The notes beneath the pieces are model-generated. The model saw only the letters and a list, made by a program, of their open reading frames with translations, was not told the DNA's origin and ran no database searches. From a virus, in IMG/VR virus record IMGVR_UViG_3300033145_003233, positions 186,001 to 250,000 of that record: 64,000 bases of DNA, one strand, 5' to 3'. Made by a program: the position numbers and the translations under genes. Each line of letters begins with the position of its first letter. Position 1 is the stretch's first letter. Below, in pieces: positions 6,544-64,000 of this stretch.

Positions 6544-6819
6544 CTATTTTTCCCTCTCATGAATCTTCTTTCTATTGGAATAAATTAGTATTAAGGTATT
6601 TACCGTTATCGAGAATAGCAATATTAGAACGACTACTCCTACTCCACATTTAACTATAGAAACGATAGCAAATAAGATTACTTCTATTAAGCATATAATA
6701 ACAGTTATAAATAGAAACATATCTATCCTTGCTTGCCATTGTTCTTTTTTACCTCGTTGTCCTTTTAGGTCTTGTTTGACATTATTATAGAGATTAGTTA
6801 TCATCGTTTTTAGTGTCAT
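6544..6819 (-). CDS. Two-helix membrane protein
   Basis: I prefer ATG 6819 (MTLKTM), six bases after GGAG, over ATGs a few codons upstream. A charged N-terminal helix is followed by two transmembrane segments (FLFITVIICLIEVILFAIV and VGVVVLILLFSITVNTLIL) and a basic tail. The gene ends two bases before the -35 box of the next unit. Function is unknown. Confidence 0.65.
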   Translation of the reverse strand: MTLKTMITNLYNNVKQDLKGQRGKKEQWQARIDMFLFITVIICLIEVILFAIVSIVKCGVGVVVLILLFSITVNTLILIYSNRKKIHEREK

Positions 6820-61214: not shown

Positions 61215-62864
61215 TTATATCCCCACATCAATACACTCTAATAATGACCAACTTCCACCATTGTTATTCCACACTTTAAGACTAGCAACGGAACCATCAA
61301 CCTCTACAGAAACAAACGTATGAAAATTATCCCCTCCGCTTTCATTCCCTGCATTTCCTGCATCTATTTGCCATACTTGACCATCTCCTCCGCTCCACAT
61401 ATCACCTGTGACCCTAGAAGTATTATCCCAAGAATTATTTACTTGATAGCGGCTATAAGCATGAGTATGCCCGCAGAAAAAAGCAACTACATTATTGTCT
61501 TCCATTAATTGCCAAAGAATATTTCTATCACTAGGATAAGCATTTAAAGAATCCGTCAAATGTCTATTGTGAGGAAAGACAGGAGCATGAGCTATTACGA
61601 ATTTAGGAGACTGAGGATACAAGTCAAATACCCCATCCAACCACTGCACCAATTGAGGGGTAGCACGTCCACTATATCCATTTACTGTAAGCCCTCGATA
61701 ATCAGCATTAGCATTAGTAGTCCCGTCCCAGTATATATTAAGAACCACAAATAGAAATCCCTTATGTTCGAAATAATACATTGTCTCTTCACAACCAACA
61801 GGGCCAGCAAACGCATAATCTGATATCGCTTCTCTACTACTAGACCCATTAGCATTATTCCATTCTGCCCTCAACCACGGCACATCATTAACACTACTGA
61901 TCTCATGATTCCCTATAGCAGGAATCCATCTATAATTGCTCCCAAATTTACTATTGATTATATTCCTGATATCAGAAACAGTTTCTCCAGAGGAGTTCCC
62001 ACACATATCTCCAGCTATAATATGAAAATCTCCTTTTCCTGCATTGACTTTAATAGCATCGCATACACTTCTGAATTGGGAATAGCTATTTCTCATATCT
62101 GCTGTAACTATAAAATGCCAAGGTAGAAAATTAGGTTCTGTCTCAGATGATTTAGATTTAACTGGTTCGGGAATATGAGCCAACCAATGTTGAGAGAACA
62201 TGGTGAAATCTACTATATCTACCGAACCATCTTTATTAAAATCATAAGGCATATCTTCATATCCAAGAGGATGGACCGTAATTTTTATATTACTTATATC
62301 CTGCTTCGATGGACCTATTGCAGGATTATCTGTTGCAGTTAATACCATCTCATGAAGACCCACTTGCTCCATTGTGGGGTTCCATATAAATAGTTTAGGG
62401 TCATATTGAGAACCTTCAAAAGTAGCTCCTGAAGGAAGATCACTTGTTGTTAATTCAACATTATCTCCATCTGGATCTGTAGCAGTAAATAAATATTCAA
62501 ATTCAGTTTTGACAGGAATTGCAAATTGAGTATTAGAAACAATTATCCCTACAGTTTTAAAAATAGCGGCTGAAGTAAAAGTTATTCTATAATGGCCGGC
62601 CTGAACATCCGTAGGAGTCCATTGAAATAAGGTTCCATCAAATACGCTTCCTTCCGGCAGGTTCCTTGCATAGACAAGAGAATTACTATCTGAGACAATA
62701 GTAATAGACAAAGATTCTCCCTCATCTACTTTTTTAAAATCTACTATCTCTTGAGATCCCCCCTCTACATCAGAAATAGAGATTGCAGAATAAGAGATAG
62801 AAGAGAAGGCGAGAATTATTAATGCCAAAAATATTTTACTGTTTCTACAAATTGTTTCCACCAT
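61215..62864 (-). CDS. Secreted phosphatase with Ig-like repeats and dockerin-like motif (549 aa)
   Basis: Residues 1-30 are a signal peptide (IFLALIILAFSSISYSA). Two Ig-like (He_PIG type) domains follow, each with an F-x-WTPT/WNPT motif. A calcium-loop segment DFNKDGSVDIVDFTMFSQHW near residue 215 resembles dockerin halves common in Planctomycetota. The remaining 300 residues are a calcineurin-like phosphoesterase (TADMR, GDMCG, GNHE, AHAPVFPH, GHTHAYS). The first D-x-H is degenerate (ADM). The gene overlaps its upstream neighbour by 46 bases. Confidence 0.85.
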   Translation of the reverse strand: MVETICRNSKIFLALIILAFSSISYSAISISDVEGGSQEIVDFKKVDEGESLSITIVSDSNSLVYARNLPEGSVFDGTLFQWTPTDVQAGHYRITFTSAAIFKTVGIIVSNTQFAIPVKTEFEYLFTATDPDGDNVELTTSDLPSGATFEGSQYDPKLFIWNPTMEQVGLHEMVLTATDNPAIGPSKQDISNIKITVHPLGYEDMPYDFNKDGSVDIVDFTMFSQHWLAHIPEPVKSKSSETEPNFLPWHFIVTADMRNSYSQFRSVCDAIKVNAGKGDFHIIAGDMCGNSSGETVSDIRNIINSKFGSNYRWIPAIGNHEISSVNDVPWLRAEWNNANGSSSREAISDYAFAGPVGCEETMYYFEHKGFLFVVLNIYWDGTTNANADYRGLTVNGYSGRATPQLVQWLDGVFDLYPQSPKFVIAHAPVFPHNRHLTDSLNAYPSDRNILWQLMEDNNVVAFFCGHTHAYSRYQVNNSWDNTSRVTGDMWSGGDGQVWQIDAGNAGNESGGDNFHTFVSVEVDGSVASLKVWNNNGGSWSLLECIDVGI

Positions 62865-63518: not shown

Positions 63519-63546
63519 ATTATATCACATAATTTTCACTTTTCAA
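63519..63546 (-). promoter_or_regulatory. Sigma70 promoter
   Basis: Minus strand TTGAAA (63546-63541), 16 bases, TATAAT (63524-63519). It starts right after the channel-like gene stop and should drive the 63.5-57.2 kb unit. ATG 63509 lies nine bases after the -10. Confidence 0.78.
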
Positions 63547-63551
63547 GTATA

Positions 63552-64000
63552 TTAAAACCACTTTTTGTAGATATTAGCATAAGTCCCATTCTCATAAAGA
63601 GTTAGAATAATCTTATCTATAGGACGTTTTAATTCACTTCCCTTAGATAGAACAAATCCATAGTATTGTTCATCAAACATACCGCCCGCCATAACAACCT
63701 TATCGGGATTGTCTTTTACATAGTTTAAGAGGATAGGATAGTCATAGACAACAGCATCTCCTCTTTCAAGCAGCAGATTATCACAGGCACTACTAATACT
63801 ATCAACTGTTTTAACTTTTGCTCCTAATTCTTTCACATATCCAACACTTGTTGTCCCTTTTTGAGTTAAGACAATTTTGCCTTTTAAATCGTCAGGGCTT
63901 TGAATATCTCCAGCTATCTTTTCCGTTGTATAATCAGCAGACAAAAGAGCAGTAAAATTACAAAAAGCCATAATCCCGCAAAAGATAAGTGCTATTGTTA
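63552..64000 (-). CDS. Ionotropic-glutamate-receptor-like channel, C-terminal half (partial)
   Basis: The frame is open to the window edge, so the real start lies beyond 64000. Residues next to the edge are a hydrophobic helix (IALIFCGIMAFCNFTALLSA), in the place of the last pore helix; NFTALLSADYTTEKI resembles the SYTANL-type gate. It continues as the second lobe of an SBP_bac_3 ligand-binding domain: IQSPDDLKGKIVLTQKGTTS, GDAVVYDYPILLNY and GFVLSKGSELKRPIDKIILT, ending YKKWF. A plain periplasmic binding protein would not have a helix there, so a GluR0-type channel fits best. Half of the gene is unseen. Confidence 0.75.
   Translation of the reverse strand, partial: TIALIFCGIMAFCNFTALLSADYTTEKIAGDIQSPDDLKGKIVLTQKGTTSVGYVKELGAKVKTVDSISSACDNLLLERGDAVVYDYPILLNYVKDNPDKVVMAGGMFDEQYYGFVLSKGSELKRPIDKIILTLYENGTYANIYKKWF

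Follow-up and report, generated by a model that had tools for sequence, protein, structure and literature searches.

Does the reading frame that runs off the edge of the DNA analysed here encode a glutamate-receptor-type channel, does it belong to a phage, and what would a phage gain from it? The window, i.e., the whole stretch of 64,000 nucleotides that was analysed, covers positions 186,001-250,000 of a 547,943-base virus record (G000). At its edge, the first-pass annotation saw a pore-type helix joined directly to the second lobe of an amino-acid-binding domain, as in GluR0 channels, within a phage-like region. Glutamate-receptor-type channels occur in animals, plants and some bacteria, and to our knowledge their role in bacteria is barely known.

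The frame was completed past position 64000 in the adjoining stretch of the record (L006), where 637 further bases of the gene were found (Table 1). This outer part encodes a signal peptide, the first binding lobe (S1), the first membrane helix (M1), the pore helix and the TVGYGD filter, and the window part supplies the entire second lobe of the SBP_bac_3 domain together with M2, starting at about residue 213. The resulting order is signal peptide, binding lobe 1, M1 (about 150-168), pore loop, M2 (about 212-230) and binding lobe 2 (S2), which ends at residue 361 with no further transmembrane helix after it. The pore loop contains TCSTVGYGDYTP, with the filter T-C-S-T-V-G-Y-G-D at residues 194-202 and TVGYGD at 197-202. 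Four Pfam matches, all above the curated cut-offs, were obtained for this protein, namely SBP_bac_3 (7.8e-23), Ion_trans_2 (4.1e-14), Lig_chan (3.4e-8) and Lig_chan-Glu_bd (5.1e-7). SBP_bac_3 covers residues 34-361 with the pore inserted within it, so that S1 and S2 are the two parts of one type-3 solute-binding domain. For the three closest phage copies, dN/dS is 0.13-0.16 at a dS of 1.0-1.7, where synonymous change is near saturation. A chance reading frame was rejected because of the four domains above cut-off and the low dN/dS, and an ordinary anchored binding protein because M1, the pore loop, M2 and a potassium filter are all present. The GluR0-like join suspected at the window edge thus proved to be part of a full S1-M1-P-M2-S2 plan, and the outcome that would have spoken against it, a lone anchor helix with no pore loop, is excluded by the completed sequence.

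Table 1. Positions of the channel gene and of other features mentioned in the text
Feature	Position	Strand	Remarks
GluR0-type channel gene, 3' part	window 63552..64000	(-)	M2 and second ligand-binding lobe (S2); open reading frame to window edge
Full channel gene	L006:3553-4638 = record 249552-250637 = window-scale 63552 to 64637	(-)	361 aa
Promoter-like motif TTGAAAAGTGAAAA...TATAAT	window 63519..63546	(-)	directly past channel gene; consensus match
Metallophosphoesterase	window 61215-62864	(-)	signal sequence, Ig-like repeat, weak dockerin-like stretch
LAGLIDADG-type endonuclease gene	L006:7787-8590	(+)	opposite strand, directly upstream of cassette
p228-like/NMT1-like fusion	L293:8988-10595	(+)	adjoining channel
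Voltage-gated-type channel	L279:10318-11133	(+)	Ion_trans 2.3e-22, TVGYGD filter, six-helix make-up by eye
Voltage-gated-type channel	L281:5030-5761	(+)	Ion_trans 1.6e-27; directly upstream of p228

An AlphaFold2 model of the channel, run with 43 natural sequences (mean pLDDT 90.4, pTM 0.75), places three membrane helices (136-169, 180-197 and 208-239) within a two-lobed domain. In agreement with the earlier proposal, its binding domain matches the glutamate-bound GluR0 core of Nostoc (2pyy; Z 30.9, 208 aligned residues, 1.1 A, 39% identity) as well as that of Synechocystis GluR0 (1ii5; Z 28.3). It should be noted that glutamine-binding proteins match this domain equally well or better (Z 31.4), and arginine- and lysine-binding proteins about as well as the GluR0 cores. 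R108, T262, T263 and D299 of the channel align with R, S, T and D of 2pyy, and these arginine, Ser/Thr and acidic positions are what we take to be the ligand contacts of the GluR0 family. Among the nine distinct viral channels described below, R108, T103, T262 and D299 are kept in all nine and T263 in eight; the filter reads TVGYGD in eight and TVGLGD in one. The channel of L293 accounts for this filter variant and has an alanine at the T263 place. By analogy, the ligand would be an amino acid, glutamate or glutamine-like. The best structural match among viral proteins (BFVD) was E3T502 of Cafeteria roenbergensis virus, a giant virus with a eukaryotic host; the alignment has 371 columns and a TM of 0.63 over the query. 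The likeness of this protein, annotated as an ABC amino-acid transporter, to the phage channel is structural, and it may be another viral glutamate-receptor-like protein.

On all features open to testing, the gene is a real, conserved phage gene of the GluR0 kind. Its product is very likely a channel subunit that faces the periplasm, is gated by an amino acid and selects potassium; its identity as a channel is well supported, and its ligand, gating and purpose we infer. Since the TVGYGD filter predicts potassium selectivity, opening would shift the host membrane potential towards the equilibrium of potassium. The initial suggestion of a ligand-gated-type channel stands, and that of a simple depolarisation of the host needs amending.

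The record comes from a genuine huge phage. Its stretch from 10 to 50 kb contains the gene of the large terminase subunit (phrog_2, 2.6e-25) along with genes for a portal (1.8e-43), a head-protease-like protein and a ribonucleotide reductase, which bears out the impression of a phage-like region. A single strand carries 114 of the 119 predicted ORFs (at least 60 aa) of the window, with an ORF coverage of 92%. No tRNA or Rfam matches were found in the window, and the Pfam models Terminase_6N and sheath had no match in the record; nor did the Gp23 model, which was silent in the control too and is hence uninformative. Methylase, NUDIX and sigma-like genes flanking the channel are conserved in one or both sister records. 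The promoter-like motif that lies directly past the channel gene recurs at record positions 6669, 7754, 278839 and 305127, with no match in 100 shuffles, and probably serves the next gene. A close form of the motif, shorter by one base (TTGAAAGTGAAA...TATAAT), lies ahead of p228, with which the cassette described below begins, in G000 and in L147. Variants of the motif are also seen before other genes of the phage record. Among the neighbouring genes, the metallophosphoesterase listed in Table 1 is unusual for a phage and gives the impression that the host may be of the planctomycete kind. Other Pfam matches in the window comprise Ro60/TROVE, queuosine salvage, IMP dehydrogenase, RNA ligases, radical SAM proteins and two N-terminal methylation (pilin-type) motifs, and a LAGLIDADG-type endonuclease gene lies just outside the cassette.

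Relatives of the channel were found in further viral records. A DNA motif scan of viral_contigs revealed five glutamate-receptor-like frames among the 120 TVGYGDxxP-bearing frames listed. A profile scan confirmed 50 relatives, seven of them full-length and 43 confined to the pore or to a part of it, and a second profile scan found seven, two of which were new. Single-protein scans of viral_contigs with the G000 channel (P0001) and with A3 gave no relative. In the phages collection, tblastn returned 17 records, none covering more than 80% of the query; these matches are single binding-protein lobes, and two of the 17 records, though classed as phage, bear Salmonella genome names. In total, ten viral records including G000 have a GluR0-type channel (547,943; 297,710; 350,866; 395,473; 40,036; 119,108; 210,938; 264,037; 186,298 and 204,149 bases). 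They represent nine distinct channels, because the 119- and 211-kb records have identical channel sequences. Six viral channels are 68, 65, 39, 31, 31 and 29% identical to that of G000. Of the ten records, nine were searched for a terminase gene (all but the one of 186 kb) and six have one (G000, G002, G003, G004, G005 and L293), in L293 only 739 bases from the channel. No terminase (phrog_2) was found in the channel records G001, G006 and G007, nor in G010 and G012; a search for the G000 terminase itself had no match in five of seven relatives, and one for its portal family none in five of eight. Records that lack terminase or portal matches may be fragments. The 395-kb record (G002) has an exact 127-base repeat at both ends, suggesting that its genome is probably complete.

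In a tree of 55 channel rows, which was built before L292 and L293 were found and does not contain them, the eight viral rows fall within one 12-row clade together with four bacterial rows, namely three from Bryobacterales and L194, the neighbour genes of which look bacterial by eye. The viral rows form two phage groups (starred in the tree), so that the tree does not establish a single origin, and the labels need two changes, compared with a mean of 7.6 after shuffling; the exact placing is uncertain, since several viral rows have an unusual letter make-up. Among the plasmid relatives from alphaproteobacteria and Salmonella (L010-L015), the receptor plan is kept and the TVGYGD filter is lost.

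The gene directly upstream of the G000 channel, past the window edge, encodes PspA/IM30 (Pfam PF04012, 5.4e-17), and the channel is the last gene in a cassette of the order p228, p265, p150, PspA, channel. The same order surrounds the channel in L146, L147, L149 and L150, with p265 sometimes in a shorter form and with one or two extra genes separating PspA from the channel in L149 and L150. It is also present in L292 and, intact across the record ends, in the 395-kb record, where a DUF350 gene (7.4e-50) stands in front. A PspA gene was detected beside the channel in eight of the ten viral records by HMMs, which were built from members of the same set and test the presence of the partners, not an independent ancestry. 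The four partner-gene HMMs had no match in any of 80 bacterial and seven plasmid loci, within those flanks (4 kb on each side of the bacterial genes where the contig allowed); 41 of the 80 bacterial matches extend over at least 200 residues. A Fisher test (7/9 viral versus 0/47, P 1.6e-7) ignores kinship and the difference between bacterial flanks of 4 kb and viral ones of 8 kb, so that the counts alone are usable. PspA was found nowhere in the 264 kb of G003 by HMM, where the channel and p228 are present, nor by HMM or Pfam in L293, which means that PspA is not obligatory beside the channel.

The other members of the cassette are less familiar. By eye, p228 has a signal peptide, a Ser/Arg-rich stretch and a C-terminal membrane helix; neither it nor p265 of G000 matched any Pfam family. 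The G000 p150 had no Pfam match at E 0.01, and its identity to the p150 proteins of L149 and L150 is just 18-20%; the L149 copy matches CesT_Tir_1 (2.2e-13), as does another member of the set (3.9e-15). No match to E. coli YjfI, YjfK or YjfM emerged when profiles were compared (p150 against YjfI, p265 against YjfK), and none between the G000 p265 and the DUF2491 protein of L293; a model of p265 (pLDDT 65) had no PDB match with E below 0.1. DUF2491 occurs in L293 only among the channel records (2.1e-16), and DUF350 in G002 only among the eight channel records searched, thus not in G000. In L293, the gene adjoining the channel joins a p228-like N-terminal stretch to an NMT1-like solute-binding domain, so that this cassette has another binding domain besides that of the ligand-gated channel. 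The channel probably belongs to a PspA functional unit.

A scan with p228 identified eight viral loci, five of them from records not previously found. In one of these, L279 (408,349 bases), DUF350, p228, p265, p150, PspA, small genes and a voltage-gated-type channel follow one another in this sequence; a second channel of this type was found in L281 (179,178 bases) (Table 1). In L283 and L284, p228 and p265 are accompanied by a PspA-like gene slightly under the Pfam cut-off, and in L285 p228 is accompanied by a PspA match of comparable weakness; no channel was found in the flanking stretches examined of these three loci. Terminase genes are present in the L279, L281 and L284 records and were not found in those of L283 and L285 (26 and 62 kb). 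The channel slot is thus exchangeable between a ligand-gated and a voltage-gated type. That one cassette combines a potassium-type pore with two different gating modules argues for control of ion flow as the shared function, and points to control of the membrane potential as the common job.

The nearest known systems each resemble the phage locus in part. With GluR0 of Synechocystis and NpGluR0 of Nostoc punctiforme the channel shares the S1-M1-P-M2-S2 plan, the potassium filter, the binding-core fold and the ligand residues, but it differs in being encoded by huge phages, in separate phage clades and in a PspA operon. Synechocystis GluR0 is reported to conduct potassium, to have its two ends on the outer side and to influence how the cell responds to a KCl upshock (PMC13099474), and a survey of 100 prokaryotic sequences placed the potassium-filter group in bacteria only (PMC2950845). 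Bacterial CesT/Tir-PspA operons (yjfIJKLM type) likewise join PspA and a potassium channel, and they have a CesT/Tir-like gene, to which p150 is a candidate counterpart in some phage versions; as described in PMC11237479, they include polyamine genes and a channel that senses an intracellular ligand, whereas the ligand domain of the phage channel is predicted to lie outside the membrane. A reading of genes neighbouring the phage channels and cassettes brought no polyamine gene to notice. Some phage versions come closer to this type through DUF350 (G002, L279) or DUF2491 (L293); since DUF350 is lacking in G000, we call its cassette akin to these operons and not a member. Kcv of the chloroviruses (PMC12332018) is also a virus-encoded potassium channel pore; it is a bare pore of algal viruses, in contrast to the phage channel with its fused ligand-binding domain. 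A laboratory fusion of the viral Kcv pore with the GluA1 binding domain is reported to work (PMC6385376); it sets a ligand-binding domain on a viral-type potassium pore, and the phage protein would be its natural counterpart. A pspA-like gene beside terD is noted in a gut huge-phage preprint (PMC12363816), and PspA-like genes in huge phages are accordingly not new on their own.

The explanation that we favour, with a probability of about 0.6, is a phage envelope-stress cassette whose gated potassium channel is exchangeable and would hold the host membrane potential. It builds on the architecture, the conservation, the phage context, the operon and the slot exchange as observed. Its further steps, from assembly, ligand and conduction to an interaction with PspA and the purpose, are put forward conditionally. 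By analogy with GluR0, four subunits would form the channel, an amino acid would close the lobes and pull M2 open, and potassium would flow through the open channel towards its equilibrium potential. PspA and the CesT/Tir-like partner might scaffold a damaged inner membrane, and periplasmic amino acids from the leaking envelope or from lysing neighbours might open the channel, which would reset the membrane potential towards the potassium equilibrium. In this way, the cassette would guard the envelope through a long infection. Protection of the membrane potential as the purpose is a suggestion to which we give slightly less than even odds.

Other readings accommodate part of these data. The same working channel might be a sensor of neighbours, in which glutamate released by lysis changes the potential and sets the timing of lysis or blocks superinfection, with PspA as a mere co-transcribed neighbour. 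Its binding domain would face the periplasm by analogy with GluR0, the amino-acid contacts are kept, and a topology with both ends outside was reported for GluR0 (PMC13099474). This reading is nevertheless unlikely, as PspA stands beside the channel across two clades of the channel tree, in the proportion given above, and the voltage-gated-type channels in the same slot elsewhere need no ligand. Phages are known to end infection with membrane proteins, and the late opening of a channel might collapse ion gradients and aid lysis as a means of host take-over or killing. We consider this somewhat less probable still, since a potassium filter, a signal peptide and a ligand domain are unlike the make-up of a holin and the operon includes a membrane-protecting protein, PspA.

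Loss of conduction would leave a receptor or solute-binding protein with the channel fold kept. Such loss does occur in the family, given the plasmid relatives without TVGYGD, but the filter is intact in the G000 channel and seven other distinct viral channels and dN/dS is low, which makes this improbable here. The least credible reading is that bacterial DNA was misplaced in a virus record. The closest non-viral relatives in the tree are bacterial, and three of the ten records had no terminase match; against this stand the terminase, portal and head genes of G000, the coding of nearly all window ORFs on one strand, the conserved methylase, NUDIX and sigma-like neighbours, the phage-wide promoter motif and the proximity of channel and terminase in L293. 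Host contamination was rejected on these grounds.

The envelope-stress cassette with its exchangeable channel can be extended, tentatively and with less confidence than its protective role, to a dedicated membrane-potential cassette of huge phages, in which a gated potassium channel of either type joins a PspA scaffold, responds to amino acids or to voltage at the infected envelope and sets the timing of protection, phage exclusion or lysis. In the open PMC literature (titles and starts of abstracts; subscription papers are outside this scope), we found no phage glutamate-receptor channel and no phage PspA-channel cassette, and the phage setting, the PspA operon and the exchangeable channel are what is new relative to the literature searched. 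A recurrent phage channel tied to PspA provides a testable link between infection, the host membrane potential and the envelope-stress response. If the explanation is true, huge phages may be able to read and steer the electrical state of their host cell during infection.
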